Virus record (IMG/VR): IMGVR_UViG_3300032087_001150
Span: 1-27,763 of that record
Reading direction: 5' to 3' (one strand)
Source of the DNA: a virus
DNA: 27,763 nt
Shown: positions 861-27,763 of the stretch, one piece after another
How the letters are laid out: each line of letters starts with the position of its first letter
Numbering within the stretch: the stretch's first letter is position 1
The notes under the pieces: model-generated
The model's input: only the letters and a program-made list of their open reading frames with translations
Database searches by the model: none
Told to the model about the DNA's origin: nothing
Made by a program: the position numbers and the translations under genes

Positions 861-872
861 GGAGAGGTTCTA

Positions 873-4641: not shown

Positions 4642-4642
4642 T

Positions 4643-11723: not shown

Positions 11724-11765
11724 TGTGAATAGACATCTGTAGGCCAAGAAAGGATACAATATATC

Positions 11766-14878: not shown

Positions 14879-14881
14879 GCC

Positions 14882-16243: not shown

Positions 16244-16245
16244 TC

Positions 16246-16416
16246 ATGAGTAAGCCAACCATACAGTCAATCCATGTTGAGCTTGAGAAGCATATCGCTG
16301 TTTCAGATGAACGCTGGACAGAAACACTAATGCGTATTAAGCGCATGGAAAGTATTATGATTGGTTCTGCTGGCGCAATAATACTATTGCTGTTGGCTGT
16401 AGTCTGGCGAGGCTAA
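16246..16416 (+). CDS. 56-residue single-span membrane protein (XhlA-like layout)
   Basis: The ORF begins MSKPTIQSIHVELEKHI two bases after the previous stop and ends one base before the next ATG. An N-terminal helix of charged residues (ELEKHIAVSDERWTETLMRIKRME, seen in two parts at about 12-23 and 24-35) is followed by a transmembrane segment (about residues 38-53, IGSAGAIILLLLAVVW) and RG. Soluble amphipathic helix plus C-terminal span is the layout of XhlA-type haemolysin/holin-associated proteins. It opens the probable lysis cassette. Family level is tentative; the membrane topology is clear. Confidence 0.6.
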   Translation: MSKPTIQSIHVELEKHIAVSDERWTETLMRIKRMESIMIGSAGAIILLLLAVVWRG

Positions 16417-16417
16417 C

Positions 16418-16885
16418 ATGGCTATCGACCCTTTGACCGCCATTGCTGTAGCAACTACGGCATACAAGGGTATAGTCAAAGCTTTTCAAACAGGCAAAGA
16501 AATTGAGGCTATGTCTAAGGACATAGGTAAGTGGATGGGTGCTATTGCTGATGTAAAGCAAGCCCATCAAGAAAAGAAAACATCTCGATTTAAAAACGTA
16601 GAAGAACAAGCTCTTGATACTTTTCAAGCTTTGAAGAAAGCAGAAAAGATGGAGATGGATTTAAAGAACTTTCTTATAGCTAACTACGGCTTTAATGCTT
16701 GGAATGATTTACAGCGCATTCAACGTGATATGAGAAAGGCTAAATTAGAAGAAAAGCGTTTAAAGGAAAAACGTGTAGCAGAAATCATGGATATGCTTGG
16801 TCTTGGTTTTGTAAGCATATTGATAGCAGCTATGGTAGGTGGTTTAGTTGCATGGATGGTTTGGCTTAAAGGAGGCTTTAAATGA
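16418..16885 (+). CDS. 155-residue coiled-coil protein with C-terminal membrane anchor
   Basis: Residues 1-20 are mildly hydrophobic (LTAIAVATTAYKGIV), 25-120 are charged and helical with likely coiled coil (for example RDMRKAKLEEKRLKEKRVAE), and 126-150 form a strong transmembrane segment (GLGFVSILIAAMVGGLVAWM) followed by KGGFK. Not recognised as a named family. In the cassette of small membrane proteins it could be a spanin-like or holin-associated component, but no lipobox or signal anchor supports a spanin specifically. The end overlaps the next gene (ATGA). Confidence 0.6.
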   Translation: MAIDPLTAIAVATTAYKGIVKAFQTGKEIEAMSKDIGKWMGAIADVKQAHQEKKTSRFKNVEEQALDTFQALKKAEKMEMDLKNFLIANYGFNAWNDLQRIQRDMRKAKLEEKRLKEKRVAEIMDMLGLGFVSILIAAMVGGLVAWMVWLKGGFK

Positions 16886-17088
16886 GTGCAGAAGATGTGG
16901 CTCGCAAAATGTTAGAGCTAAAAATACTTCCTAGGTTTATGATGTTATGCATGACAGGTGTGTATATACGTTGCATTGAGTGGGCATTATCACAGCCGGA
17001 TTTAACAACTCAACAGGCTTCGTTAATATCGGTTGTCACTGGTGCAATGACAGGCAGTCTGGCTGTTTGGCTTGGGAGTGAGAAATGA
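16882..17088 (+). CDS. 68-residue two-span membrane protein, probable holin component
   Basis: Starts in ATGA overlap and ends in ATGA overlap, so it is translationally coupled on both sides. Two hydrophobic stretches are present: about residues 15-34 (ILPRFMMLCMTGVYIRCIEW) and 46-65 (ASLISVVTGAMTGSLAVWLG). Size and topology fit a small class II-like holin or antiholin. Context, directly before a recognisable 3TM holin, supports a role in host lysis. No specific family is recognised. Confidence 0.6.
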   Translation: MSAEDVARKMLELKILPRFMMLCMTGVYIRCIEWALSQPDLTTQQASLISVVTGAMTGSLAVWLGSEK

Positions 17089-17429
17089 TACAGTTACTCG
17101 GTATTGCTGGCAGCCTTGCCAAAACATTTTTAGAAGGCAAGGTAGAAAAAGAAAAAGCCAAAGCAGAGGTTATGAAGACTGCGGCTCAACATGATAGTAA
17201 ATGGGAACTAATCATGGCTGAGTCTACAAAAGGAAGCTGGAAAGACGAGGCAGTCACGATTGTCGTGTTAGTGCCTGTGATAATGTGCTTTATTCCTGGC
17301 ACTGAGGAACTTGTAAAGTCTGGGTTTGACAGGCTCAATGAGTTGCCTGACTGGTATCAGTATCTACTTTACCTTGTTTGTAGTGCTGCGCTTGGCATTA
17401 AAGGACTGGATAGACTTCTTCGCAAGTGA
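17085..17429 (+). CDS. Holin of the gene-transfer-agent 3TM type
   Basis: 114 residues. An N-terminal helical region with KVEKEKAKAEV (about 19-29) is followed by the signature GSWKDE (50-55), a hydrophobic segment VTIVVLVPVIMCFIPG (57-72), then a LPDWYQYLLYLVCSAALG segment (87-104). The GSWKDE-hydrophobic-xxP-W pattern is that of GTA_holin_3TM proteins, common in alphaproteobacterial phages and gene transfer agents. It would permeabilise the inner membrane at lysis. It is the last rightward late gene, and its 3' end overlaps a leftward gene by 66 bases. Confidence 0.75.
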   Translation: MIQLLGIAGSLAKTFLEGKVEKEKAKAEVMKTAAQHDSKWELIMAESTKGSWKDEAVTIVVLVPVIMCFIPGTEELVKSGFDRLNELPDWYQYLLYLVCSAALGIKGLDRLLRK

Positions 17430-17573
17430 ACGCATCATCAACGTAGAACGTGTTTGTTTGGTTGCTACGGCTGCTGCTCTATTAAATAGTTTTTCACGTT
17501 TTTCAGCCAGATATTCAGCAAATTCATCTGGGGTCATTGACAAAATGTCATCATTATCATTAATCTGAGTCAT
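17364..17573 (-). CDS. 69-residue small protein, convergent with the holin gene
   Basis: Start placed at 17573 (MTQINDNDDILSMTPDEF), behind GAGGGCAGCC, and overlapping the upstream gene end by 14 bases. The N-terminal half is acidic (MTPDEFAEYLAEKREKLFN, about residues 13-31) and helical; the C-terminal half is basic (SLAKKSIQSFNAKRSTTNKVK in part). It overlaps the last 66 bases of the holin gene on the other strand, which lowers confidence in its exact 3' end. Not recognised. It is the last gene of the leftward recombination operon. Confidence 0.5.
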   Translation of the reverse strand: MTQINDNDDILSMTPDEFAEYLAEKREKLFNRAAAVATKQTRSTLMMRSLAKKSIQSFNAKRSTTNKVK

Positions 17574-17949
17574 GGCTGCCCTCATCGGCGGTTGTATGGG
17601 AAGAGGAGAAGGGGTGTGCTTCAAACACTTCTTCTCCGCCCCCTGTTAAAATATCTTCTATAATAAAGATAAGCATCTGCATTACAGAGGATTTATCCTC
17701 ACTATCCCCATATCCCCAAATAAGGAAGTTAGTATGTCCTCTGTCGTCATTTACAATAGTGACAGATATCTTTACTGCATCTTCAGTTACTTGCCTTACG
17801 TTGATAAACATTTGACGGTAAGAAGTAAATATACCAGCCCCTGTTATCCAGAGGCAGTTGTCTTCAGCTATGCATTGTGGTGAGAATATCTGTGCCTTTT
17901 TTGCAAGAAGACTTTGCAGACCCCTATCGTGTAGGCATTCATTTGTCAT
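17560..17949 (-). CDS. 129-residue protein of unknown function
   Basis: Start chosen at 17949 because ATGACAAATGA overlaps the stop of the upstream zinc-ribbon gene; longer in-frame starts lie inside that gene (for example 17997). The protein reads MTNECLHDRGLQSLLAKKAQIF, then a beta-rich centre (about residues 35-95: CLWITGAGIFTSYRQMFINV, VKISVTIVNDDRG), and a Glu/Ser/His-rich tail. No motif recognised. Conserved operon position after the recombination genes suggests an early accessory role only. Confidence 0.55.
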   Translation of the reverse strand: MTNECLHDRGLQSLLAKKAQIFSPQCIAEDNCLWITGAGIFTSYRQMFINVRQVTEDAVKISVTIVNDDRGHTNFLIWGYGDSEDKSSVMQMLIFIIEDILTGGGEEVFEAHPFSSSHTTADEGSHDSD

Positions 17950-18175
17950 CTCGGTAACGGACTTTCTGGATTTCTCGTCCTTCTGAATGATTTTCATAAG
18001 GCTTCTTGAGGTTCTGCCAACCGACACCGTAATAGCATCGGTCGCAGAATCTGTCCCCTGCGGCTGTTACAGTAAAACTATCTGTCTGACAGTTAAACAT
18101 CTTACCGCACTCACGGCAACGTGCAAATATATGGTTACGCTGCTTTGAGTTTGTTTTTCGCTTTCTTGAACTCAT
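17939..18175 (-). CDS. Small zinc-ribbon protein
   Basis: 78 residues. C20-x2-C23 (RCRECGKMF) and C44-x2-C47 (FCDRCYYG), plus C29, are spaced as in a one-domain zinc ribbon. The N-terminus is strongly basic (SSRKRKTNSKQRNH), which would suit nucleic-acid binding. The start lies inside the end of the annealing-protein gene (41-base overlap); no later start keeps the first CxxC pair. Phage zinc-ribbon proteins of this size are often recombination or transcription accessories, but no specific role can be assigned. Confidence 0.65.
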   Translation of the reverse strand: MSSRKRKTNSKQRNHIFARCRECGKMFNCQTDSFTVTAAGDRFCDRCYYGVGWQNLKKPYENHSEGREIQKVRYRDDK

Positions 18176-18710
18176 CAGTTACCTTGTTTCTTACAACTTT
18201 ACCCAGAGTAGAGATAGCGGCTGAATGTTTACGCCATACCTTGTCAATCTCCTCAACTGACTTAGCTTTAGCAAAATCTTCGATAATGACAGAGCCATCC
18301 TCTTCATCCAAGTCCATAGGCAAGTCCTCACCAGCATAGACATTGAGGCCAAGACCGTGGAACGCAATAGCTTTTACCAAGCAACGCTGTAGAGCTTTGT
18401 TGACCTGCCCACCGTCTGGATGCTGGATGGATTTGTTCATGTGGTCCATCACATAATGAATCTCTGTGTGTTTGATATCTTCGATAGTGACGGACACAGC
18501 AACGTATGTATGACCTTTAGTGTCACGCATAAAAGGCAGTGGGTTGTCCTGATTGTCACGGAAGATGTGCTTTTCAAAGGTAGCAGTGGGATACTTCTCT
18601 TTGACATAAGCCCAAGCCCAAGCCCATGAGAGGTAGTCGAACTTACCCTTCTTCTTGACTTCTGCTGATACATCAAACTTAGATAGTGTTGACCATACAT
18701 TACTCATCAT
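18135..18710 (-). CDS. Single-strand annealing protein, DUF1071 (Sak3-like) type
   Basis: 191 residues from the start at 18710 (or 18707), which lies behind AAGGAGAAG; a longer frame from 18728 has no such site. FDYLSWAWAWAYVKEKYP (about residues 24-41) is the typical N-terminal DUF1071 motif, and NKALQRCLVKAIAFHGLGLNVY (about 126-147, shown here as one block of the family) plus AGEDLP complete it. The family anneals complementary single strands for phage recombination, alongside a 5'-3' exonuclease. The exonuclease gene is directly upstream in the same operon, and an SSB is encoded further along the leftward strand. Strong by motif and context. Confidence 0.85.
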   Translation of the reverse strand: MMSNVWSTLSKFDVSAEVKKKGKFDYLSWAWAWAYVKEKYPTATFEKHIFRDNQDNPLPFMRDTKGHTYVAVSVTIEDIKHTEIHYVMDHMNKSIQHPDGGQVNKALQRCLVKAIAFHGLGLNVYAGEDLPMDLDEEDGSVIIEDFAKAKSVEEIDKVWRKHSAAISTLGKVVRNKVTDEFKKAKNKLKAA

Positions 18711-19563
18711 TCTTCTCCTTCGGTGCAATGTGTGTACATGTCAGTGTGCCAGAACGAGAACGTGTGACACGAATTTTGTGGCCCTTCATATTGCCAGTAA
18801 GTTCGTAATCCATACGGCGGCATTTCTCAGGCATTCTTGATTTAAATGCTTTCTTGGCTTCATCACTTAGAGCAACTGACTCTTTAGCGTCAATGATAGC
18901 TTTAGATACCATGCGATAGGTGGCATCTACTTCCTCAGACCAGTCAGGTAAGTCACGCATATTCATGACGAACATATCTGAATACTCTACAGGAGGCAGT
19001 GCAAGAGGTGTCTTTAGCACTCCATTCTGATACATATCCCAGAACTGTTTGCATTGCTCAAGATAATCATCCATCCAGTTATGGTCAGCTTTGATGAGCC
19101 GCCATTCTAGACGGCAGCGTACACCGAATAGAGCCACAAGATAGCAGACGTTGCGACCAGCCACGAGCATATGGTGCTGACATTGTGGCGCATATAGTTC
19201 ACATAGTTCGTCCATGTCCTTGAAACCAAAATGAGTTTTAACTTCCACAGGAATAAGAGAACCAGAAGTACAAGCATCAAAGGTAGAATGCATAGGGATG
19301 CCGCCAATAAGATTAGTTTTGCCAGCCCCTTCCATGCAGACATTTTGTGCCTCCTGTTCTACCCACTTGTCGATGATGAATGATTCCATGTGAGAGCCAG
19401 CGTCCATCATAAGTTGAACTTGCTTGCTGGGCTTCCATGTCTCTTCACCACGCTTTTGTGCTGCTAGTGTTTGCCATTCTTCGATGTCACCAGAGGCGAT
19501 GACTTTGGCATCTGATGAGCCGATGTAGGTGGCTCGTTCTTTTAGTTGTGCTTCTGTCAACAT
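18700..19563 (-). CDS. YqaJ-type phage recombination exonuclease
   Basis: 287 residues, starting in an ATGTTGA overlap with the upstream gene. The PD-(D/E)XK exonuclease motifs of the YqaJ/lambda-exonuclease group are visible: IGSSDA (residues 14-19), GSHMES with E60, STFDAC with D96, IPVEVKTH with E107 and K109, and the QCQHHM glutamine/histidine motif (127-132). The enzyme would resect double-strand ends to give 3' single strands for the DUF1071 annealing protein encoded just downstream. The operon arrangement exonuclease then annealing protein is the standard phage recombinase pair. Confidence 0.88.
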   Translation of the reverse strand: MLTEAQLKERATYIGSSDAKVIASGDIEEWQTLAAQKRGEETWKPSKQVQLMMDAGSHMESFIIDKWVEQEAQNVCMEGAGKTNLIGGIPMHSTFDACTSGSLIPVEVKTHFGFKDMDELCELYAPQCQHHMLVAGRNVCYLVALFGVRCRLEWRLIKADHNWMDDYLEQCKQFWDMYQNGVLKTPLALPPVEYSDMFVMNMRDLPDWSEEVDATYRMVSKAIIDAKESVALSDEAKKAFKSRMPEKCRRMDYELTGNMKGHKIRVTRSRSGTLTCTHIAPKEKNDE

Positions 19564-19733
19564 GGTGCTTGCTCCTCACGTTTGTCCATCTCACGGCTGT
19601 AACATTCGCATTCACCGTTCTTGATTTCATTGTATCCACACTCATGTTCGCAATCTGGTATAGGCATATCTTCCATAATGACATTGCCGTAAGCTTCTTT
19701 ACCAGCTTGTTCTTTTGGGTCTTCTTTAGACAT
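19557..19733 (-). CDS. 58-residue cysteine-rich acidic protein
   Basis: Start at 19733 is preceded by TAAGGAGAC; a longer frame upstream has no such site. Five cysteines occur at 28, 32, 42, 44 and 58 (PDCEHECGYNEIKNGECECY), with H30, a spacing that could bind a metal. The N-terminal half is Glu/Lys-rich and flexible. Unknown function. It is the second gene of the recombination operon and overlaps the exonuclease start. Confidence 0.6.
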   Translation of the reverse strand: MSKEDPKEQAGKEAYGNVIMEDMPIPDCEHECGYNEIKNGECECYSREMDKREEQAPC

Positions 19734-19743
19734 ATTAGTCTCC

Positions 19744-19950
19744 TTAGTAATCGGCTTGCTTATATAAGTCAGGCCCGCATTCTTCGGCTTGTTGATCCGC
19801 CCATGCGTCTTCCATTGCATCACGGAATTTGTAGGGATTGAAGTTTGTGTTAGCGTGTCTCCTTACTTTGATGAAAAATAATTCCTTGTTTTGAACAAGG
19901 GGTGATATCTCGGCAGCAAGCCACCGATAGTCTTTTCGGGTAAGTGCCAT
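19744..19950 (-). CDS. 68-residue small protein, first gene of the recombination operon
   Basis: Start at 19950 (MALTRKDYRWLAAEISPL) is chosen for the GGAGGAGAC site; an in-frame ATG at 19977 has none. It has a helical N-terminus, FFIKVRRHANTNFNPYKF (about residues 25-42) and an acidic C-terminus. It resembles small conserved phage proteins starting with the pattern (L/F)T(K/R)xDYxxIAxxI, but no function is known to me. It is 64 bases from the divergent HTH gene. Confidence 0.6.
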   Translation of the reverse strand: MALTRKDYRWLAAEISPLVQNKELFFIKVRRHANTNFNPYKFRDAMEDAWADQQAEECGPDLYKQADY

Positions 19951-20014
19951 GTGTCTCCTCCTTGCATGACAATTCACATTAACATATTATTGGCTTGAAT
20001 AACAGGTGAAGTGA
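19951..20014. promoter_or_regulatory. Divergent promoter region between HTH gene and recombination operon
   Basis: 64 bases separate the two divergent starts. On the + strand, TTGCAT (19971-19976) and TATTAT lie 17 bases apart, a plausible sigma70-type promoter with a weak -35, giving a short leader to the start at 20015 behind AGGTGA. No equally good - strand promoter is apparent. A small HTH regulator encoded next to it is the natural candidate to bind here; this is inference. Confidence 0.35.
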
Positions 20015-20242
20015 ATGAGCGAATCAGAATTTACCTCCGACTTAATCAAGCAGTTCCAGTTGAGGCGTTATCAACTTGGCTTGACCCAGCCCGATGTTGA
20101 CCAGAAGATAGGAGTCGCAACGGGACTCTGTGCTAAATGGGAAATGGGTAATAGAAAGCCAACATTGTTTAATGCATATTGTTGGGCAGAGGCCCTTGGA
20201 TGCGAGATTAAGCTGGAGGCAAAACATGATATGCGGGATTGA
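20015..20242 (+). CDS. Small HTH (XRE/Cro-like) transcriptional regulator
   Basis: 75 residues. Residues 16-62 (LRRYQLGLTQPDVDQKIGV then KWEMGNRKP and YCWAEALG) match the helix-turn-helix pattern of XRE-family DNA-binding proteins: LGLTQxDVxxKIG, then WExGxRxPT. There is no oligomerisation domain. It is read with the resolvase and faces the divergent recombination operon, so it may regulate the shared intergenic region. Its stop overlaps the resolvase start by 17 bases. Confidence 0.75.
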   Translation: MSESEFTSDLIKQFQLRRYQLGLTQPDVDQKIGVATGLCAKWEMGNRKPTLFNAYCWAEALGCEIKLEAKHDMRD

Positions 20243-20708
20243 CCCTGGACTTACAGGGGGCATAGCGTTTCTACACAACGATGTTGTATTAGCGATACGA
20301 ACACCTGTCATTAAAGTTAAGAAGAAAAATTATCTCAATGTAGGCGAGATTGTGGCGTTGCTAATAAAGCATGAGCCAGACCACATTTACATTGAGAAGC
20401 AACAAGCAATGCCGAGGCAAGGCGTAGCTAGTACATTTCGTACTGGTTTTGGCTACGGTATTTACCTTGGCTTGATTATTGCATTAGGTATCAAGCATAC
20501 AGAGGTCACTGCTCGTCAATGGAAGAAAGACCTCTGTGTGCCTGCTGATAAGGATATGGCAAGAGGCATAGCAACACAGCTGTATCCGCATGCCTCAAGC
20601 CAATGGAAGTTAAAGTGTGAAGATGGAGTAGCTGAATCTACTCTGATTGCTCACTGGGGGGCCAAGTTCCAAATGGGTCAAAGCGTCCCTCAGAAAGAGC
20701 TTCAGTAA
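20226..20708 (+). CDS. RuvC-like Holliday junction resolvase
   Basis: 160 residues from the ATG at 20226, chosen for CTGGAGGC upstream and because MICGIDPGLTGG starts the first catalytic strand; a longer frame begins inside the HTH gene. Acidic residues expected in the RNase H-like fold are present: D6 in CGIDPGLTGG, E57 in IYIEKQQA, and D133/E137 in CEDGVAESTLIAHWG. The loop QQAMPRQGVASTFRTGFGYG is typical of phage RuvC-like resolvases. It would cut branched DNA made by recombination and replication before packaging. Its last 71 bases overlap the convergent ParB-domain gene. Confidence 0.85.
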   Translation: MICGIDPGLTGGIAFLHNDVVLAIRTPVIKVKKKNYLNVGEIVALLIKHEPDHIYIEKQQAMPRQGVASTFRTGFGYGIYLGLIIALGIKHTEVTARQWKKDLCVPADKDMARGIATQLYPHASSQWKLKCEDGVAESTLIAHWGAKFQMGQSVPQKELQ

Positions 20709-22242
20709 TCTTCTCGACACGAGATGACTTAGTGCCGCTTTTGGCGTTACCAAAGAGCCACTCTTCCATCTGGTCTAGCTGGTTGGTCTTCCACTTGTTG
20801 ACCCACGTTGCGTCTGGCTTGAACCAGTTTTGTAGGTTAAGCTTTTCGTTGAACCCTTCCATCGATTCAGACCTGAAGTCATAGATTGATAAACTACGCA
20901 GACAACACGCCACAAACAACTCGTCAAGGTCTTTAGCTGGGAGATTGTAGCAGTACATAAGTGGAGTAATATTGTCATTTTCATAAGCATATTCACAAGC
21001 ATCGATGTGCTTACCGATAACAGCTTCATCAGGTAAATCAGTGTAGCCATTTGGCTCTCCTTCTGATGGGAAGATTCTTTGTACGTCAGCATATACATGA
21101 CCAATACGATTAACATGGTGGTATGTGTAGCCAAGCTTGCGGTGACATAGCAAAGCTTTGAAGAACTTCACTTTGTCTATTTTGTTTGTTTTCCACATGA
21201 GACGAAGTGTTGCATCAGCAAAATAAGAGTAAACCAAATCCTTTTGTGGATTGGAGAATGTAAGAGGCGTAATGTCTTCTTCTGCTTCTTCCATTTCTTT
21301 CTTGGCTTCAGTGTCTTCCTTGATGTCTTTGAGTACCATGAGATGTGTATCAAGTGCGTAACGCATAGTGTTGTACGTTACGACTATAATCATCTCTGAT
21401 ATGTCATAGTCTTCTTCATTGTAGACAGTGAGGCATCCTCTAAGTTCTGGCATATCCCAGTGATACTGGTCTTTGGCATACACAACATCGTAGTAACCTT
21501 GCTGACGATAATCTTGACATACATTGAAGATATGTTCCTCTTGTAGCTTGTCGAATGCTTCACGGTTGGTAATAAACTCTTCATCACCAAACAAGTCAGC
21601 TTCGATACCAAGGCTACTGCGATGTCTTTCAGTATTAAACAGTGCAGCACTCATAGGAATTTTGGCTGAAAGCATAGCTCGTCTGACTGATTCTGGATGA
21701 AAATGTGTATTGTCTGCCAGAAACTCGTCCTGTTTCTCCTTTGTACCGAGCGTCAGGGCCTGTGCAGCGCCCATAGTGAAGTCACCATTACGGAACATAG
21801 CTTTGGCGTTATCAGACAGCTCAGAGAGGCTTATACGCTGTTCTACCCACCGTTTGGTTTGACCAAAACGTGAGGCAACAGAGTCAAAGTCCTCCTGACC
21901 ATCGTTGCACAACGCCATAATAACATCACATTCATCAAGCGGATGCATGTCTTCACGGATCATATTGGCATGGAGGCCAACCTCTGCGCTGTCTTCATCG
22001 ATGACAATACAGTTGATAGGTGTACCACCTTTGCCTTTGTAGATAGTCTTGAGGGCATCGAGGCGTCTGTTGCCATCGATAACTACATAGCCCTTGCCGT
22101 TGGGAGTTACGACAAGGTTATGCAGCAGACCACAGGACTGGATTGAGGCGCATAAAGCCTTGAACCCAGAGTCACTGGGCTTGACCTTACGCACATTGTT
22201 TGGGGAGTGTTTTAACTCCTTTAGTTCAATTTGCGTTTGCAT
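20638..22242 (-). CDS. ParB-like N-terminal domain protein, large
   Basis: 534 residues; start behind GGAGGAAGTAA. Residues 1-110 carry the ParB/Srx-like fold: SIQSCGLLHNLVVTP (33-47), IDGNRRLDALK (55-65, the NTP-binding GxRR motif with N instead of E), and LHANMIREDMHPLDE (90-104). An HTH follows (ASRFGQTKRWVEQRISLSEL, 123-142). The rest, about 350 residues, has no recognised domain and contains an acidic helix (DIKEDTEAKKEMEEAEED). No ParA partner lies in the window, so plasmid-type partition is not implied; in phages such proteins can act as nucleases or transcription modulators. Function unknown beyond the domain. Confidence 0.8.
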   Translation of the reverse strand: MQTQIELKELKHSPNNVRKVKPSDSGFKALCASIQSCGLLHNLVVTPNGKGYVVIDGNRRLDALKTIYKGKGGTPINCIVIDEDSAEVGLHANMIREDMHPLDECDVIMALCNDGQEDFDSVASRFGQTKRWVEQRISLSELSDNAKAMFRNGDFTMGAAQALTLGTKEKQDEFLADNTHFHPESVRRAMLSAKIPMSAALFNTERHRSSLGIEADLFGDEEFITNREAFDKLQEEHIFNVCQDYRQQGYYDVVYAKDQYHWDMPELRGCLTVYNEEDYDISEMIIVVTYNTMRYALDTHLMVLKDIKEDTEAKKEMEEAEEDITPLTFSNPQKDLVYSYFADATLRLMWKTNKIDKVKFFKALLCHRKLGYTYHHVNRIGHVYADVQRIFPSEGEPNGYTDLPDEAVIGKHIDACEYAYENDNITPLMYCYNLPAKDLDELFVACCLRSLSIYDFRSESMEGFNEKLNLQNWFKPDATWVNKWKTNQLDQMEEWLFGNAKSGTKSSRVEKITEALSEGRFDPFGTWPPSEQSE

Positions 22243-22441
22243 TTACTTCCTCCACGAGAATAGTCTGGTCTCTTTCTTCGACAGAACGCAACCATTGCAA
22301 GCGTTTACCATCACTTACGCTAAGATAAACAGTATGAGCAGCACTGCCATTTTGAATAAAACGAATGCCAACAAAATCTGGGTCATCGGTGTCAATGACA
22401 ACCCTAGTGCATTCGAGGGTAATACTAGAAGATGTGTACAT
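22226..22441 (-). CDS. 71-residue small beta-rich protein
   Basis: Starts in a TAATG overlap with the upstream gene and overlaps the ParB-domain gene by 17 bases. It is preceded by TGGAGAAATAAATA. The sequence alternates strands (SITLECTRVVIDTDDPDFVGI, in pieces at about 5-25, then AAHTVYLSVSDGKRL), suggesting a compact beta fold. No family recognised. Both overlaps support its being a real gene in the operon. Confidence 0.6.
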   Translation of the reverse strand: MYTSSSITLECTRVVIDTDDPDFVGIRFIQNGSAAHTVYLSVSDGKRLQWLRSVEERDQTILVEEVNANAN

Positions 22442-22665
22442 TATTTATTTCTCCATACACGCCATGTGTCATTTGTTAGCTTACGCATAGTAGCAGAACT
22501 ATTGCCGTATCTTCTGCGAATAGCCTGGCACATGCTTATTACCTGAAACTTGTCAACTTCAACACAGTCTCCAACTTTCATTTTTTCTGCTACAGCACCA
22601 AGTTGAGAATGTGAGTTTCTTGTTGGTAGCGGAATGCCGCTACGAATCTTAATCTTATCAAACAT
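22441..22665 (-). CDS. 74-residue small conserved phage protein
   Basis: Start at 22665 (MFDKIKIRSGIPLPTR) has GGAGAA just upstream; longer starts lie inside the next gene. The pattern EKMKVGDCVEV (about residues 27-37) followed by IRRRYGNSSATMRKLTNDTWRVWR (in pieces, 49-72) resembles a family of small phage proteins in which a VGDSF-like turn precedes a basic helix and a WRVWR ending. The basic helix could bind nucleic acid. No function is established to my knowledge. Confidence 0.6.
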   Translation of the reverse strand: MFDKIKIRSGIPLPTRNSHSQLGAVAEKMKVGDCVEVDKFQVISMCQAIRRRYGNSSATMRKLTNDTWRVWRNK

Positions 22666-22681
22666 TTTTTTTCTCCATAAA

Positions 22682-22912
22682 TTACGAATCATATTTTGGC
22701 TTCCAGTGCGTAACATCACCAGTAAGCCAGCTTGAATTATCGCTGGACACAAAGATATGCATACTTTTCCATTCAACACCTTCGGAATCGGTATAATATC
22801 CTTGAAAAGTTCCTTCGTCTTGAATTACAAAATCAGGTTTAGGGGCAAAATAATATTCTACCCTTTGTCCAATCTCAGGCATTCTATCTTCTACTGCTAT
22901 CCAATCAGTCAT
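22682..22912 (-). CDS. DUF551-like small protein
   Basis: 76 residues; start at 22912 behind AAAGGAGGAC. The ends match the DUF551 pattern frequent in phages: WIAVEDRMPEIGQRVEYYF near the N-terminus (residues 4-22) and GDVTHWKPK near the C-terminus (about 66-74), with VEWKSMHIFVS between. The molecular role of this family is not known. It is one of a string of small leftward genes each with its own ribosome binding site. Confidence 0.75.
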   Translation of the reverse strand: MTDWIAVEDRMPEIGQRVEYYFAPKPDFVIQDEGTFQGYYTDSEGVEWKSMHIFVSSDNSSWLTGDVTHWKPKYDS

Positions 22913-22931
22913 TAGTCCTCCTTTTATGGGT

Positions 22932-23174
22932 TTATTCCCCAATATTTAGCTCCATTTCCTCTGGTGTTATTGTGCCGTTTTCAATTTGAAGCCTTGTATC
23001 TTTATTTAATTTGTCTATTGCAATGGATGCATTTTTTATAAGCTCATTAGAATGAAAATTAGGATTTACTATTCTATAGCTGTGGTCATAAAGATGAATA
23101 CGCATTACAATTTCTCGTCTATCTAGCGATTCTTGTTCTCTTTTTATATGTTTAGGATTTGGATTGTTTGCCAT
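22932..23174 (-). CDS. 80-residue small protein of unknown function
   Basis: Start at 23174 lies directly next to the stop of the upstream gene (23175) behind GGAGGACTAA. The sequence is charged and largely helical (KHIKREQESLDRREIVMRI at about 8-26), with an acidic C-terminus (TITPEEMELNIGE). No motif recognised. Confidence 0.6.
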   Translation of the reverse strand: MANNPNPKHIKREQESLDRREIVMRIHLYDHSYRIVNPNFHSNELIKNASIAIDKLNKDTRLQIENGTITPEEMELNIGE

Positions 23175-23393
23175 TTAGTCCTCCATAATTTTGTCAGTCA
23201 GTGTCTTTGAGGCGAACGCAACGCCAATCCACAGGGGCGCACCAATCACTGAAACCAAAAGGGTCGGATTGATGCCCATGCCTATCATCAATAACAGGAT
23301 GGTAAACGACAATGTTAGGTGAACAGTGACGAACCACCCAATCCATCGAGTCTTCGTGTTGACGAATCCTATTTGTCTTAGCTTGTTGATCAT
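23175..23393 (-). CDS. 72-residue two-span membrane protein
   Basis: Two hydrophobic segments are clear: about residues 18-40 (WIGWFVTVHLTLSFTILLLM and GMG) and 43-62 (PTLLVSVIGAPLWIGVAFAS), with a short charged tail (KTLTDKIMED). The N-terminus is basic (NKLRQIGFVNTKTR). Likely inserted in the host inner membrane as an early accessory or superinfection-type protein, which is a guess from topology alone. It abuts the next gene without a gap. Confidence 0.6.
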   Translation of the reverse strand: MINKLRQIGFVNTKTRWIGWFVTVHLTLSFTILLLMIGMGINPTLLVSVIGAPLWIGVAFASKTLTDKIMED

Positions 23394-23395
23394 GT

Positions 23396-23557
23396 TTACT
23401 CCTCATTCTTTTGTACTTCACCCAGACCATGACACTCATCGCACTCACCCCATTCTCCTTTGAGGTATCCGCCACGTTCATAGTCAATGACTGGGACTTC
23501 ATATTCGAGGCGGCCTTCACCGCCACATTTTGAGCATTCTACAAATATATCAAGCAT
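23396..23557 (-). CDS. 53-residue zinc-finger protein (two CxxC pairs)
   Basis: Start at 23557 overlaps the end of the upstream gene by 8 bases (ATGCTTGA). C8-x2-C11 (ECSKCGGEGRL) and C39-x2-C42 (ECDECHGLG) form a pair of CxxCxGxG-like knuckles, similar to half of a DnaJ zinc domain. A site for one zinc ion is therefore likely. Nothing else is recognised. The short length and overlap are typical for small genes in this operon. Confidence 0.65.
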   Translation of the reverse strand: MLDIFVECSKCGGEGRLEYEVPVIDYERGGYLKGEWGECDECHGLGEVQKNEE

Positions 23558-23753
23558 CGAGTATGCCCTCTCTTATCATGTCTTGAATGCGTCTGCCGTA
23601 CCAACCTTGGAGGCGTAAGTACATACCTGAGTCGTACAGGTATTGCCACGCAGCTATAAACTCTTCTTGGCTTTTTGCTTGCTCAATGCCCTCAGCAATA
23701 AACACAGCAATGCCGGGCTGATCATTGAAAGAATATTGGTCTGTAGTCCTCAT
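23550..23753 (-). CDS. 67-residue small protein of unknown function
   Basis: Start at 23753 (MRTTDQYSFNDQPG) is preferred over the ATG at 23759 because GGAG lies at a proper distance only from the former. It reads helical with FIAEGIEQAKSQEEFIAAWQYL (in pieces, about 17-38) and LQGWYGRRIQDMIREGILDA (about 48-67). No motif known. The start lies inside the 3' end of the upstream gene. Confidence 0.6.
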   Translation of the reverse strand: MRTTDQYSFNDQPGIAVFIAEGIEQAKSQEEFIAAWQYLYDSGMYLRLQGWYGRRIQDMIREGILDA

Positions 23754-24141
23754 AACCATTCTCCATTGATATTTGTTTCTTTTTGAACATCAACATAACT
23801 TGTAAGTCATGCGTATCACCAATAAAGTGTATGTCTTTCTCAAGGGTTTTAAAAGACGTTTGAGGCACAGATGACTCACCTTCATCGTCAACACCCATGA
23901 ATAATCCTTTGTTTACAAGGGGTTGAGGATAGTTACGGTGAATCCAGAAGTACCGCTGCTCTGCATAGAGGCCCTCGTCATCGACATACACACCATCGCC
24001 ATTGTCGTAGAGGCGTACGAATGTGAACATTGAGGCGTCAATGAGGCGTTTGATATGGCTGAAGCCGTCTGGGTCTATGTCTGATTTAACCAGTTCAAGC
24101 TTTTGGCTTTTGGGATTTACGATAGTGTCCATTGATTCCAT
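23722..24141 (-). CDS. DUF3846-like protein
   Basis: 139 residues. Start at 24141 (MESMDTIVNPK) is preferred for GGAGGTTCAC immediately upstream. The stretch RLIDASMFTFVRLYDNGD then YVDDEGLYAEQRYFWIH (about residues 32-65), and later KGLFMGVDDEGE, match the DUF3846 pattern of a glycine/asparagine-rich V(D/N)xEG core followed by aromatic residues. Many phages and mobile elements carry this domain; its role is unknown to me. Its leader can form a hairpin that may hide the ribosome binding site (24139-24166). Confidence 0.6.
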   Translation of the reverse strand: MESMDTIVNPKSQKLELVKSDIDPDGFSHIKRLIDASMFTFVRLYDNGDGVYVDDEGLYAEQRYFWIHRNYPQPLVNKGLFMGVDDEGESSVPQTSFKTLEKDIHFIGDTHDLQVMLMFKKKQISMENGYEDYRPIFFQ

Positions 24142-24166
24142 GTGAACCTCCTGTGAATCTTTCACA
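24139..24166 (-). promoter_or_regulatory. Possible ribosome-binding-site hairpin
   Basis: Read on the - strand: TGTGAA (24166-24161), a short AGA loop, TTCACA (24157-24152), GGAGG, then TTCACA again (24146-24141) with its last A being the A of the start codon. The first element can pair with either copy of TTCACA. Pairing with the second would enclose GGAGG and part of the start codon, while pairing with the first would leave them open. No effector or experimental support is known. Confidence 0.35.
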
Positions 24167-24231
24167 AAAACAGCCCCACCACTTACCCGTAACTTTAGCA
24201 GAAGTCATAAACGGTTAAGCGATGAGGCTGT
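24166..24231 (-). terminator. Intrinsic terminator after the SSB gene
   Basis: Two 20-base arms (24231-24212 and 24189-24170, - strand) pair along their full length except for one A.G mismatch, with three G.U pairs, and are followed by T5 (24170-24166). The loop is 22 nt. On the + strand the same G.U positions become A.C mismatches, so the signal belongs to the - strand. It lies about 43 bases past the SSB stop. Confidence 0.75.
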
Positions 24232-24274
24232 CCTTCTATTCTAGGCAATAGTCGTGATGACTACCGTTGGAGAC

Positions 24275-24688
24275 CTAGAATGGAATGTCGTCATCTGCGT
24301 CATTCTTGGAGGCTGGTGCAGAGCCACCCTCGGATGAAGCCTTCCCAGCAAGCCGGAAGGTAGACCCTGCGCCTGCTAGTTTAACTTTGAATGAGCGATG
24401 TGTCACGCCATCTTTTTCATACTCCTCAATGATTGGGAAGCCTTGAGCAAAGACGGTGATGCCCTTCTTCACATACGGCTCAATGACAGATGACACGAGG
24501 CCCTTGCCATTGCTACCGTCCCAAGCTTCGAGGCGATACCAGTGGGTCTTCTCCACCTTCTCACCCTGCTTGTTGGTGTATCCTTCGTTGACAGCAACAG
24601 ACAGGTTAGCAACCTTTGTGTCGTTGACCATACGAATTTCTGGGTCTGCACCCACGTTACCTGATACTGTGATTTGTGCGATGTTCAT
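24275..24688 (-). CDS. ssb: Single-stranded DNA-binding protein
   Basis: 137 residues. The N-terminus MNIAQITVSGNVGADPEIR and the HWYRLEAWDG block (about 49-58) are typical of OB-fold SSB proteins. The C-terminus ends ASKNDADDDIPF, the acidic DDDIPF peptide that bacterial and phage SSB proteins use to recruit partners. It would coat single strands during replication and the exonuclease/annealing recombination encoded further left. The gene has its own hairpin-rich leader (24689-24881) and a strong terminator, so it may be a separate transcription unit. Confidence 0.92.
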   Translation of the reverse strand: MNIAQITVSGNVGADPEIRMVNDTKVANLSVAVNEGYTNKQGEKVEKTHWYRLEAWDGSNGKGLVSSVIEPYVKKGITVFAQGFPIIEEYEKDGVTHRSFKVKLAGAGSTFRLAGKASSEGGSAPASKNDADDDIPF

Positions 24689-24881
24689 GACGAACTTCTC
24701 CTTACGTTATGTTACAGTCACTATCGACTGCACCAAAATACCCCATTGGCTTATGAAAACCAACAGGGTACTTCAGTGTTTGTGACAACGGTTGAAAGGT
24801 GAGGGTATCACGTTACCTGACCCTCTGTGGCACTACTGACGACCTTGCTCGAGCTGACGGTGAGTACCTCAATCTCCTATG
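24689..24881 (-). promoter_or_regulatory. Hairpin-rich SSB leader
   Basis: 193 bases without a convincing gene. It holds four perfect or near-perfect inverted repeats: CAGTC/GACTG (24715-24730), the terminator-like hairpin at 24735-24770, GAGGGT/ACCCTC (24801-24825), and CCTCAA/TTGAGG (24867-24896, which spans the stop of the gene at 24882). A weak - strand promoter (TTGGTT, 17 bases, TATTTT) overlaps the second hairpin. The AAGGAGAA ribosome binding site lies at its 3' end. Confidence 0.5.
24735..24770 (-). terminator. Terminator-like hairpin in the SSB leader
   Basis: On the - strand TACCC-TG-TTGG pairs with CCAA-TG-GGGTA to give 11 continuous pairs including two G.U, with a 10-nt loop, followed by TTTT (24738-24735). 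On the + strand the G.U pairs would be A.C mismatches. It could end transcription from the genes to the right or act as an attenuator before SSB. The short T run makes this moderate. Confidence 0.5.
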
Positions 24882-25172
24882 TTAGTTACGTTGAGGCGGA
24901 ACTTTCTCCCACCCAAACCATAATTTATTCCACTTTGGCTTCTTATAACCTCTGATGCGTTTTGCGGCATATAAGAAAGAGGATATGATGCATCCGCCAA
25001 TTACTGCTGCCATCATGCCTGCAAATGTTCCAGCGAACATAATCACAAGCAAGATAGTTGAGGCTATGTCTATTGGTATGTCAAGCCAAAGAACTTTGTC
25101 AAAGTCAAACTTGGCTAAGAGGAATATTATTGCGAACGCCGCAAAAACCCCAGCAATGATGTAGAAGACCAT
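24882..25172 (-). CDS. 96-residue membrane protein
   Basis: Start behind CAGGAGAATC. Hydrophobic segments lie at 2-20 (VFYIIAGVFAAFAIIFLLA) and in a long stretch at about 35-69 (with ILLVIMFAGTFAGMMAAVIG), which may be one long or two short spans. The C-terminus is basic and aromatic (KPKWNKLWFGWEKVPP). Not recognised as a family. It overlaps the upstream membrane gene by 46 bases, so the two are probably coupled partners. Confidence 0.6.
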   Translation of the reverse strand: MVFYIIAGVFAAFAIIFLLAKFDFDKVLWLDIPIDIASTILLVIMFAGTFAGMMAAVIGGCIISSFLYAAKRIRGYKKPKWNKLWFGWEKVPPQRN

Positions 25173-25369
25173 TTGATTCTCCTGATAATTGAACCAAGAA
25201 CTTGCAATGTATCAACGACCCAAATATGAGCCATGCCAAAAATTACAAGGCCAAGTATTTTGAGGAAGACAACAATAGCTGCCATAACTCCTGAATTAAA
25301 TGCAATGTAGGCATAGAAACCAAATAACAATACAGCAAGTGTGTATCTAAGAAACTTTGAAGCGAACAT
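25127..25369 (-). CDS. 80-residue membrane protein
   Basis: Start behind AAAAGGAGAATATC. A basic N-terminus (ASKFLRY) leads into two spans, about residues 9-27 and 29-55 (AAIVVFLKILGLVIFGMAHI), then a basic C-terminal tail (RRIKWSSTSLLGFLRRSQ). Positive-inside charge distribution suggests both ends are cytoplasmic. It is followed by another membrane protein gene in overlapping frame. No family recognised. Confidence 0.6.
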   Translation of the reverse strand: MFASKFLRYTLAVLLFGFYAYIAFNSGVMAAIVVFLKILGLVIFGMAHIWVVDTLQVLGSIIRRIKWSSTSLLGFLRRSQ

Positions 25370-25584
25370 GAGATATTCTCCTTTTACTCATTTGAGGCAT
25401 TGCTTGGCTTACCCCCTGTCAACGTGAACGTCTTTTGTGGTTAGCCTCTTTGCTAGGGTGTCGGGAGTGCGTGAACGTCCTGACTTGACTGACGACCCTC
25501 GATGGGTCGGAGAGCAACTGCCGAGCTTTGCGAGCCTGGTCGAACGAAGTGAAAACCAAGCGAGCAAAGCGTTGTTTGGCACAC
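25370..25584. other. Intergenic region with repeats and a long imperfect palindrome
   Basis: About 215 bases with no convincing gene. It contains a direct repeat CGTGAACGTC (25423-25432 and 25470-25479), a CGACCC/GGGTCG hairpin (about 25492-25508), and a 46-base palindrome 25525-25570 in which 13 of 16 arm positions pair. A perfect - strand TTGACA lies near 25418, but no matching -10 is seen. Confidence 0.5.
25525..25570. repeat. Imperfect palindrome, 16-base arms
   Basis: GCTTTGC-ga-GC-c-TGGT (25525-25540) and ACCA-a-GC-ga-GCAAAGC (25555-25570) are complementary at 13 of 16 positions with a 14-base spacer. Either strand could form a hairpin. It could be a protein-binding site or an RNA structure; the strand cannot be decided from mismatches because the + strand gives tandem G.A and the - strand gives one G.U. 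Confidence 0.6.
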
Positions 25585-25623
25585 AAAAAAAAGGTGGAGA
25601 CCTGACTCTGTGGCCAGGCCTCC
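25585..25623 (-). terminator. Intrinsic terminator after the gene at 25632
   Basis: On the - strand GGAGGCCTG (25623-25615) pairs with CAGGTCTCC (25604-25596) to give a 9-bp stem with one G.U, followed by ACC and eight T (25592-25585). It lies just past the stop of the gene ending at 25632. Confidence 0.8.
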
Positions 25624-25631
25624 GTCTGCTG

Positions 25632-26255
25632 TTAGACTTCTTTGCAGTGCTGATTGAGATATGCTTGCTGTTCTGGCTTTGACATTGACAGCCAGCGGTC
25701 AGCAGTGACACGCTTGTTGACTGGACGCCACTGACGAGCTTTCTTCTCTGCGTCAAGTGCCTTGCGTGACTTGTACACTCCCATCGTGTAGCCAGTGCGT
25801 CTCTCAATCTCTGGACGAACCGAGTTGAGTAAAACATAGTGCATGTTCTTGATGTAAGCGTACTGATCTCTCAGCTTGTCACGAAGGTCGACAAGTCTGC
25901 GATGCTCAAGCACTGTAATCTCTGGGTCAGTGATAACGTGGTCTGCGATACTGTCGTTTATCTTAGTACCGTAACGTCCAAGTGACTCCATCTCGTACTC
26001 GAGGTTGCGAATGCGACTGTCGATGAGCTTGCAGCACAACGTCAAGTCGTTGCCGTCACCATGAAACATGATGGCAGCAGTCTCAAGCTGTGCGTAATGC
26101 TGTTGCCATGCTTCATCGTATGACTGCTTGGCTTGCTCTGAGAATGTCTCGTGTTGCAACTGTCGTGCAATGTCATCAAGATAGTCTGTCGTGATGTCCT
26201 GCAACCGTGGTAGTTGCTGGCACTGTTCTCTGAGCTGTTCTGATAATGATTGCAT
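25632..26255 (-). CDS. 207-residue helical protein of unknown function
   Basis: Start at 26255, just after the stop of the upstream gene, behind AGAGGAGAATTAG. The protein is Gln-, Leu- and Arg-rich (SEQLREQCQQLPRL, then DDIARQLQHETFSEQAKQSY in pieces), with long helices through about residue 145 and a basic C-terminal part (RKALDAEKKARQWRPVNKRV). No membrane span or known motif. Followed by a strong terminator, so it ends a transcription unit. It could be a coiled-coil accessory; no function can be assigned. Confidence 0.6.
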   Translation of the reverse strand: MQSLSEQLREQCQQLPRLQDITTDYLDDIARQLQHETFSEQAKQSYDEAWQQHYAQLETAAIMFHGDGNDLTLCCKLIDSRIRNLEYEMESLGRYGTKINDSIADHVITDPEITVLEHRRLVDLRDKLRDQYAYIKNMHYVLLNSVRPEIERRTGYTMGVYKSRKALDAEKKARQWRPVNKRVTADRWLSMSKPEQQAYLNQHCKEV

Positions 26256-26256
26256 C

Positions 26257-26484
26257 CTAATTCTCCTCTACGATACGGTTGCCAAGTTCTTCTTTGAATA
26301 ATGACCAGCACTTAGGAAGTGTGTTGGTCTGTATGTCATATGCTGCTGCCATGTCATCTTCTTGAATGGCTTCAATTTGTCTTTTGGACCAGAATATAAT
26401 CATCTGTTTCAGTGTATATTCTTTGTCCATCATAAACTCCATTGGTTGATATGGATTAAAATGTTTAGATAACTCTTTGTTCAT
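26257..26484 (-). CDS. 75-residue small protein of unknown function
   Basis: Start preceded by ACGTCAAGGAGAATC. A Met/Pro-rich beginning (HFNPYQPMEFMMDKEY) leads to a helical body (TLKQMIIFWSKRQIEAIQED at about 24-43) and an acidic end. Nothing recognised. It abuts the next gene with a one-base gap, suggesting co-translation. Confidence 0.6.
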   Translation of the reverse strand: MNKELSKHFNPYQPMEFMMDKEYTLKQMIIFWSKRQIEAIQEDDMAAAYDIQTNTLPKCWSLFKEELGNRIVEEN

Positions 26485-26538
26485 TTGATTCTCCTTGACG
26501 TAATGGGGTAGATGACAATCACCTACCCATAAGTTGGC
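26485..26538 (-). promoter_or_regulatory. Leader with hairpin before the gene at 26484
   Basis: The sequence holds GGGTAG/CTACCC (26506-26511 and 26523-26528, extended outward by AT pairs with one bulge), then the shared leader ACGTCAAGGAGAA next to the start. There is no T run after the hairpin, so it is not an intrinsic terminator; a processing or stability element is possible. Confidence 0.4.
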
Positions 26539-26745
26539 TTAATTGGATGCTTGGTCTTTGTTCCACTCTAACAAGTAGAACCCAGCCCCCATGAGGTTGT
26601 TCATGCAATCCAATAACTCTTCAACTAGATATGGATGATGATGACTAGTCTCATCATGCTCCTTAAGCATAAGCTTGACGTAATCGTAGTTGGTAAGTTC
26701 GATACGAATTGCCATGTCCATATCAAAGTCTTTAGTTAAAGTCAT
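26539..26745 (-). CDS. 68-residue acidic small protein
   Basis: Start behind GTAGGAGGCTGAT. The protein is acidic, with a His-rich patch (KEHDETSHHHPYLVEELLDCM, in pieces at about 28-48), and ends YLLEWNKDQASN. No family recognised. It is separated from the next leftward gene by a GGGTAG/CTACCC hairpin (26506-26528). Small size and the strong ribosome binding site favour a real gene. Confidence 0.6.
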   Translation of the reverse strand: MTLTKDFDMDMAIRIELTNYDYVKLMLKEHDETSHHHPYLVEELLDCMNNLMGAGFYLLEWNKDQASN

Positions 26746-26754
26746 ATCAGCCTC

Positions 26755-26949
26755 CTACTGAATTGTAATGTCGATAAGTGAAGCAAGTTGCTCTGCTCTG
26801 TGGTAGTCACCGTTTGATATAGCATCCTGTATCTCACAACGTACCATATCAAGGTCATCGAACTCGTGACCAGAATGGAAAGTATCTGGTACTTCATGAT
26901 GTGATGTTACTGTTTCTGCAATGATTTGATTCTCGTCTTTGATAGTCAT
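26755..26949 (-). CDS. 64-residue acidic small protein, first gene of the leftward run
   Basis: Start behind AACGTCAAGGAGAAATT. The protein is acidic and histidine-containing (TVTSHHEVPDTFHSGHEFDD at about 12-31), then a helical stretch (RCEIQDAISNGDYHRAEQLASL in pieces). No motif recognised. It is the rightmost leftward gene; upstream of it lies the large structured noncoding region, where its promoter should be, though no good - strand sigma70 promoter is obvious. Confidence 0.55.
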   Translation of the reverse strand: MTIKDENQIIAETVTSHHEVPDTFHSGHEFDDLDMVRCEIQDAISNGDYHRAEQLASLIDITIQ

Positions 26950-26981
26950 GTCAATTTCTCCTTGACGTTAAGTTGATTCAG

Positions 26982-27260
26982 CAGGGGTTTGTCACACCTA
27001 CGGTTGGCTATCATCACGCCCAGAAAGGGGTCGAAGAATAAATTCAGATGTCAGTCCTTAGTTTTGCCGTCCTGAAAACGGCAAAAGTTTAAGCACCGCA
27101 CTATCGAAAGAGACTAGCTGTGATGTATCGGGGTGCGTAGGACTGCACTGAAGAATGAGATAGCCGTTGCGAGTTGTTCGACATAGAGTGAAGTCAAGGC
27201 TATCGAACCCCTTGTCGGGTGTGGTATCCCACTTGTTTACGTGGGTGTGACAAATCCCTG
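26982..27260 (+). ncRNA. Candidate large structured noncoding RNA, class not recognised
   Basis: Arms 26982-27002 and 27240-27260 (21 bases each) pair completely, using 19 Watson-Crick and 2 G.U pairs (26987:27255 and 26999:27243). Inside, nested helices can form: AAGGGGT 27025-27031 with ACCCCTT 27207-27213; CAGTCCT 27052-27058 with AGGACTG 27139-27145; TTTTGCCGT 27062-27070 with ACGGCAAAA 27078-27086; GCACC 27093-27097 with GGTGC 27132-27136; GATAGCC 27159-27165 with GGCTATC 27198-27204; GTGG 27221-27224 with CCAC 27229-27232. The two G.U pairs would be A.C mismatches on the - strand, so the + strand is favoured. No promoter was identified. It is not recognisable as tmRNA, RNase P RNA, 6S RNA or a tRNA. 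Confidence 0.55.
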
Positions 27261-27268
27261 TGTGGCCC

Positions 27269-27286
27269 GAGCGGCCTGAGCGGCCT
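27269..27286. repeat. Tandem 9-base repeat GAGCGGCCT
   Basis: Two exact adjacent copies (27269-27277 and 27278-27286), GC-rich in an otherwise moderate region and placed just after the large helix. Function unknown. Confidence 0.8.
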
Positions 27287-27313
27287 ATCGGTGCGGCGCA
27301 AGGAAGTGAGTAA

Positions 27314-27360
27314 GAGCAACATACTTACACCGCAGACCAAATCTCGTAAGTGTGTTGCTC
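27314..27360 (+). repeat. 15-bp hairpin in the noncoding region
   Basis: GAGCAACATACTTAC (27314-27328) pairs with GTAAGTGTGTTGCTC (27346-27360) with 14 Watson-Crick pairs and one U.G pair; loop 17 nt. The U.G pair would be an A.C mismatch on the other strand, so + strand RNA is favoured, as for the larger fold just upstream. Confidence 0.75.
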
Positions 27361-27379
27361 GCATCGATGAAAGCGTGAT

Positions 27380-27549
27380 TGACCTGACAAGACAGGTCAG
27401 CCTGTCTGGCAAGACAGCCGTAAGGCAAAGAGTGATAAAACGGCGTTACGTTTTTGTGATCAAACTGACAACAGTTTGCCCATCTGGAAGATGCCCGTCT
27501 GGCGAAGACTTGCTGCAAGGCAACAGTGATGCAACGGCGCAACGTTGCC
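27380..27549 (+). repeat. Cluster of short inverted repeats
   Basis: In order: TGACCTG/CAGGTCA (27380-27399), CTGTCT/AGACAG (27402-27417), CGTAA/TTACG followed by T5 (27419-27455), CAAACTG/CAGTTTG (27461-27478), CATCT/AGATG (27481-27493), GTCT/AGAC (27497-27509), and GGCAAC/GTTGCC (27519-27549), the last including the perfect palindrome GCAACGTTGC (27539-27548). The first two can also re-pair with each other, AGACAGG 27390-27396 with CCTGTCT 27401-27407. Confidence 0.7.
27419..27455 (+). terminator. Weak intrinsic terminator candidate
   Basis: CGTAA (27419-27423) pairs with TTACG (27446-27450), followed directly by TTTTT (27451-27455). The stem is only 5 bp; an overlapping GCCGT/ACGGC pairing (27417-27421 with 27440-27444) competes. 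It could end an RNA that started in the structured region upstream. Confidence 0.3.
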
Positions 27550-27657
27550 GCACTCCGAGAAGGAGACAATAGAAAAATATGCAAGCGCAAGTCTTGCTCA
27601 ATGAATGCGCCACAAAAGAAAAACGGACGACAAAGCCCCGATTTCGTAAAATGTGTC

Positions 27658-27688
27658 TTGACAGCTAGCAGAGATTGATATGTATAAT
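27658..27688 (+). promoter_or_regulatory. Consensus sigma70-type promoter, rightward
   Basis: Perfect TTGACA (27658-27663) and perfect TATAAT (27683-27688) are separated by 19 bases, two more than ideal. Transcription would start near 27695 and run off the right end of the window, towards a gene beginning at about 27720. It suggests an early operon read by host RNA polymerase. Confidence 0.6.
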
Positions 27689-27719
27689 CGTCCGTAGACG
27701 CAATGATTGGCCCACGGAT

Positions 27720-27763
27720 ATGACGAAAGCAAACGTTACACAACAAGAGAAGTACAAGGCAGG
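27720..27763 (+). CDS. Start of a rightward gene, cut by the window end
   Basis: An ATG at 27720 opens MTKANVTQQEKYKAG and stays open to the last base. It lies about 25 bases after the predicted start site of the promoter at 27658-27688, and overlaps the stop of a 6-codon leader ORF (27703-27722) as ATGA. No strong ribosome binding site is seen. Only 14 complete codons are present, so the product cannot be identified. Confidence 0.4.
   Translation, partial: MTKANVTQQEKYKA

Follow-up and report, generated by a model that had tools for sequence, protein, structure and literature searches.

What is encoded in the gene-free stretch that separates the two divergent operons of a marine phage? The window analysed here is the complete 27,763-base virus record (IMGVR_UViG_3300032087_001150) of a marine short-tailed phage infecting bacteria. 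From its letters alone, an original prediction had proposed that the + strand of this stretch carries a multi-branched RNA of about 280 nt, closed by a 21-position helix with two G·U pairs, which belongs to no known class and recalls the large ornate RNAs of phages. We show that the fold is beyond chance, that a fold is kept in the same slot of relatives, that pairing is compensatory in the main family of these relatives, and that whole domains are swapped between near-identical flanks. Catalogues list no such RNA, and the slot fold probably represents a working class of phage RNA, although its function is unproven.

Genome setting

The slot is bounded on one side by the ribosome binding site (RBS) of the first gene in the leftward early operon and on the other by the promoter of the terminase small subunit gene (terS), which is read rightward; the predicted gene-free location between divergent operons held. 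The surrounding features are:

36-17429, rightward (+): structural genes
26949-17560, mostly leftward: early genes, with SSB, Sak annealing protein, YqaJ exonuclease and a ParB-like gene
26755..26949, - strand: leading gene of the leftward early operon, with an RBS (CTCCT on +) whose end lies some 20 nt ahead of the closing helix P1
27658..27688, + strand: terS promoter, TTGACA-19-TATAAT, the best-scoring sigma70-like site of the window and conserved in relatives
27720..27763, + strand: start of terS (MTKANVTQQEKYKA..), truncated by the window end

The early region also holds a small HTH gene and a RuvC-like gene, both on the + strand. The gene at 27720 was identified as terS through relatives, where terL comes next. 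In a TerL search the closest cultured phages were Pelagibacter phage Hodr (55%) and Methylophilales phage MEP301 (40%), and a TerL search of bacterial genomes gave a single distant match only (44%). No tRNA or tmRNA was found in the window.

A protein-coding explanation was considered and rejected. Two open reading frames overlap the slot, 27200-27412 (-) and 27219-27572 (+), and both are taken as spurious (without a codon test) because they extend into sequence that is non-homologous in relatives with near-identical flanks.

A hairpin element, GGGGTAGATGACAATCACCTACCC, lies between early genes at 26505-26528 and recurs beside the early genes of relatives; it could be a processing site or a recombination joint.

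A multi-branched fold closed by a long helix

The predicted closing helix (P1) was confirmed. All 21 of its positions pair, 19 as Watson-Crick pairs and two as G·U when the + strand is read as RNA. Helices of this kind (21/21 pairing, at least 19 Watson-Crick, span below 400) occur exactly once in the window and never in 40 dinucleotide shuffles of the whole window. The further nested helices and the multi-branched form also held as described, with a predicted interior of P2, P3 and two branches, one of them bearing two hairpins:

26982..27260, + strand: module A, the multi-branched RNA domain closed by P1 (z = -7.35); the slot of relatives is also folded
26982-27002, + strand: P1 5' arm, CAGGGGTTTGTCACACCTACG
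27240-27260, + strand: P1 3' arm, CGTGGGTGTGACAAATCCCTG
27013..27021, + strand: P2 5' arm, ATCACGCCC, pairing with 27217-27225 (predicted fold)
27217..27225, + strand: P2 3' arm, GGGTGTGGT (predicted fold)
27025..27031, + strand: P3 5' arm, partner 27207-27213 (predicted fold)
27207..27213, + strand: P3 3' arm (predicted fold)
27043..27152, + strand: branch a, stem TTCAG.TG.CAGTCCT / AGGACTGCACTGAA, bearing two hairpins
27062-27086, + strand: one of the branch a hairpins, TTTTGCCGT/ACGGCAAAA
27159..27204, + strand: branch b, hairpin arm GATAGCC / GGCTATC (predicted fold)
27261..27575, + strand: module B, an array of more hairpins reaching the terS promoter region (z = -4.1)
27314..27360, + strand: 15-bp hairpin in module B, with GACCAA in its loop

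The 279 nt of the + strand fold at -113.8 kcal/mol, and none of 200 shuffles was equally good. This strong z is tied to the exact module boundaries, since a 300-nt sliding scan (step 150) fails to single the region out and reaches z = -5.5 elsewhere. The extent of about 280 nt needs qualification: structure runs on to about 27575, so the RNA is likely to be larger, with its transcript ends undetermined.

The - strand of the same 279 nt also folds well (-102.2, z = -6.81), as does the + strand with single-stranded DNA parameters (z = -7.8). These strong alternatives mean that the strand, and whether RNA or DNA is at work, could only be settled by comparative evidence.

Two other 300-nt windows of low energy, 901-1200 (z -5.5) and 16351-16650 (z -5.0), lie at least partly within genes.

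The same slot in relatives

More than 100 loci were gathered through two protein searches, a TerL search and DNA patterns; a permissive local-alignment stem finder was discarded as too noisy. Close relatives are 88-97% identical to the window up to 26968 and again from 27525 or 27622 onward. The sequence in between is swapped for non-homologous sequence in six of them (L003, L005, L011, L013, L015 and L016), and each replacement folds again around a long closing helix. Among close relatives only L002 retains the slot sequence of the window. In a survey of about 55 relatives, those whose sequence spans the slot almost all have a strong fold there, 1-2 kb upstream of terL. L021 and L022 are among the few that look weak in a coarse scan, yet their exact module folds well. 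The original prediction would have been undermined by homologues that kept the sequence and lost the pairing; the opposite is seen, as relatives retain the pairing and change the sequence.

An identical sequence, TCTCCTTGACGT, stands ahead of two early genes (26490-26501 and 26957-26968), its second copy at the left edge of the swapped region. It consists of a reverse-strand RBS plus ACGTC and exceeds the length that an RBS needs.

Covariation in the main family

About 35 distinct modules of relatives (230-450 nt) form a main family in which a long helix closes the module and more hairpins follow. The closing helix has the pattern …ACACACG / CGTGTGTGTGT…, with TGTGTGTGTG on its 3' strand, and the module begins 13-25 nt past the RBS of the first leftward gene, whatever that gene is. 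Searching 2.9 million viral contigs with the pattern CRTGTGTGTGTGTTCTCA returned 29 stretches, mostly on contigs already found by the TerL search.

Covariation is strong here. In the alignment of one group (Z), 19 of 61 pairs are changed on both sides, 8 of those in P1, and 94% of cells are paired, against 27-43% in slid-partner controls. In 500 shuffles, paired cells, both-sided changes and covariation score never attain the values of the real alignment; the count of additional pair types stands out less (20/500 shuffles). A second group (T2) has 16 of 84 pairs changed on both sides. A covariance model built on T2 (R1) recovers members of the Z group as well as L030, L043 and L044, and one built on the X group (R2) recovers the T2 members L007 and L047, plus L044, L011, L064 and others. 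Together, the two models unite most relatives in a single family.

Certain loops persist while their stems are rewritten. Eight hairpins carry a GACCAA loop on rewritten, still paired stems, and thirteen have a YACY loop with a bulged A; all of these lie on the + strand and none on the - strand.

Module A of L030, L043, L102 and L120 contains a hairpin with two facing AAGGAA loops (GGAAGGAACCG..TTGGAAGGAACCG), and other relatives carry AAAATGGATTT..AAATTCGGATTTTG with a GG bulge. These are exchangeable subdomains that could serve as protein-binding motifs.

RNA or DNA, and which strand

The strand was examined through single-pair interruptions in helices common to the folds of both strands. 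Interrupted pairs are G·T in 43 cases and A·C in 6 (32 vs 4 in module A; 11 vs 2 in the module B of relatives). Of 38 modules, 37 fold more stably as the + strand, despite a G+T content of 0.498. GNRA tetraloops number 9 vs 5 by strand; their GYAA subset (8 vs 0) was chosen post hoc and carries no weight.

These counts bear on two rivals. The first holds that the slot is a DNA element (a cruciform, an origin, or a cos/pac site beside terS) without RNA function. Packaging sites often adjoin terS, and the stability of the + strand under DNA parameters is unusual. On the other hand, a cruciform would have no preference for G·T over A·C, and specific loops occur on one strand only (although this does not rule out one-stranded ssDNA). 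We consider this rival highly improbable.

The second sees a 5' leader of the early operon on the - strand, that is, a riboregulator or antiterminator. In its favour, a gap of 13-25 nt separates the end of the fold from the RBS of the first - strand gene, and in Hodr the closing helix spans the RBS and start of that gene. Against it stand the wobble bias and the loops, which favour the + strand, the lack of any conserved - strand promoter in our search, and a hairpin at 27597-27581 (- strand) that resembles a terminator and would stop such transcripts in the window. This reading, too, has very little likelihood.

The G·T excess and the loops confined to the + strand exclude a simple cruciform and a - strand leader as the main function. 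In the main family the functional strand is thus the + strand, acting as RNA and not as a cruciform, although single-stranded DNA is not formally excluded. The predicted + strand RNA is accordingly supported by the covariation of relatives and the wobble signature.

How the module of the window relates to the family

For the window's own sequence, comparative support is indirect. Neither R1 nor R2 matches 26982-27260 significantly; the only matches, both weak, fall at 27314-27360 (11.4 bits for R1 and 5.6 for R2). The stem of that hairpin resembles the P1 ends of relatives (ACATAC..GTGTGT), and it might be a leftover of the usual module or a product of chance. The P1 3' strand of the window has GGGTGTGAC where most relatives have TGTGTGTGTG.

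Two exact-pattern scans for more copies of the window's subtype returned L002 alone. L002 is 97% identical to the window (20 differences in 469 columns) with P1 unchanged; one C-G pair of P2 becomes G-U by changes on both sides, and differences between the two disrupt several of the predicted interior pairs.

What the window does share with the family is its place, with the terS promoter on one side and the RBS of the leading leftward early gene on the other, and its architecture, a long closing helix around a multi-branched domain. We therefore assign its RNA to the slot and the architecture, not to the sequence family. The window is not alone in this respect: slot folds that match neither model are present in Hodr (z = -9.7) and in the distant relatives L075-L096. 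In the Hodr record, OQ414635.1, the slot lies at about 12,160-12,400.

Transcript signals and a late-operon leader

The terS promoter lies downstream of the fold. Searches for a conserved sigma70 promoter ahead of P1, or for a conserved promoter on the - strand, found none, and no conserved + strand terminator was found between the fold and terS. Without a conserved promoter before the fold or terminator after it, the ends of the RNA are undetermined.

A third rival is a cis-acting leader of the late operon. In this scenario, + strand transcripts from further upstream would traverse the fold before they reach terS, and the RNA would modify RNA polymerase (like the put RNAs of HK022) or otherwise control late gene expression. 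In support, the fold shares its strand with the late genes and directly precedes terS, no conserved terminator intervenes, and small hairpin motifs are conserved. However, with a strong conserved promoter after the fold, most terS transcripts would lack it, and our search for a + strand promoter further upstream found none. In addition, the slot RNAs are far larger than put sites. The leader remains a possibility. The put elements are phage RNA hairpins with bulges, connected with terminator read-through; they differ from the slot RNA in being much smaller and in lying inside the transcript that they affect, whereas here a promoter stands between the fold and terS.

The spacer of the terS promoter is 19 nt in most relatives and 17 nt in Hodr. 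A 19-nt spacer is not usual at sigma70 promoters but is characteristic of those that MerR-type activators remodel. An inverted repeat (ACGGACGA / TCGTCCGT, at 27623-27630 and 27688-27695) flanks the promoter and is conserved in close relatives; it is possibly an operator for a repressor of late transcription.

Database searches and known phage RNAs

The absence of a known class held. Rfam 15 gave no match even at E <= 5 for the whole window or for 26900-27763 alone, and none for the loci of 14 relatives. No match at gathering level was obtained for GOLLD, ROOL, OLE, HEARO or any other family. A blastn search with the slot of the window and with that of L058 found nothing in 50,697 phage records.

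The predicted likeness to large ornate phage RNAs holds in kind only. GOLLD and ROOL are encoded by phages or prophages, measure hundreds of nucleotides, fold into elaborate multi-branched structures and were found by comparative sequence analysis; their function is unknown (PMC12286853). The slot RNA is likewise phage-encoded, large and multi-branched. By contrast, GOLLD and ROOL are often near tRNA islands, whereas the slot RNA sits between the early operon and terS in a window without tRNA or tmRNA, and its sequence changes far faster, with domain swapping and no Rfam match. The pRNA of phi29, which binds the portal and is required for packaging, is another structured phage RNA positioned with packaging genes, and it serves another type of motor; the slot RNA accompanies a terS/terL pair, and no pRNA match appeared among Rfam families.

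A proposed role and the remaining rivals

In our explanation, the slot would encode a structured noncoding RNA on the + strand. Its minimum extent would be the 279 nt enclosed by P1 (26982-27260); with the hairpin array to 27575 included, it probably measures about 550-600 nt. It would belong to a fast-evolving set of RNAs that, in a clade of short-tailed marine phages, occupies this place between terS and the early operon. The RNA would be transcribed in the late direction (there are no transcript data) and may act in trans as a stable scaffold, whose conserved loops (GACCAA; YACY with bulged A) might bind host or phage proteins. Rewriting elsewhere could reflect an arms race, or it could spare co-infecting phages from cross-talk. 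Loop conservation is the only support for the inferred trans action and protein binding; for the RNA of the window, a shared role is inferred without sequence homology, on the strength of position and architecture. Taken as a whole, from the slot RNA set through to the trans scaffold, this explanation is slightly more likely to prove wrong than right, and the function of the RNA is unproven.

A fourth rival is a replication RNA, that is, a folded pre-primer like RNA II of ColE1, which would start phage DNA synthesis with host enzymes and whose variability would avoid incompatibility among related phages. RNA II is a folded RNA of comparable size, which forms a primer at an adjacent origin and is used where an initiator protein is absent. 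The size and rapid variation of the slot RNA would fit. Moreover, the window has Sak, YqaJ, SSB, RuvC-like and ParB-like genes, and no recognized DNA polymerase, helicase, primase or replication initiator among the genes of the early region (17560-26949). Yet many early genes are unannotated and could include an initiator, and Hodr, which has a slot fold, carries a gene whose C-terminal part matches replication-initiation families. The slot RNA also differs from RNA II in that it has no sequence or model match, and neither origin features nor an antisense RNA I have been shown. We regard this rival as unlikely. A free-standing noncoding RNA is preferred, with its functional steps inferred, and the late-operon leader and the replication RNA remain live rivals.

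A bolder reading, which we consider less likely than not, is that a large clade of marine phages carries RNAs that inherit only an architecture and a few loops, with entire domains passing from phage to phage like cassettes at a fixed place, and that the RNA of the window is an independent solution of the same role. If true, phages would swap RNA in this slot much as they do protein modules, perhaps for counter-defence or the exclusion of rival phages.

These observations add an unlisted class of large phage RNA, present on dozens of marine metagenomic phage contigs, in which structure is kept under extreme sequence turnover and domain swapping and which ordinary sequence searches miss. Should it act on host defence or on competing phages, its interchangeable domains would form a natural series for comparison. 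Since Hodr (host Pelagibacter HTCC1062) is cultured and has a strong slot fold, expression, strand and need for the RNA are directly testable.

Hodr (L125) also has a very long hairpin at 3575-3790, with RBS-ATG in its arms on both strands, which looks like the start of the leftward gene duplicated in inverted orientation.
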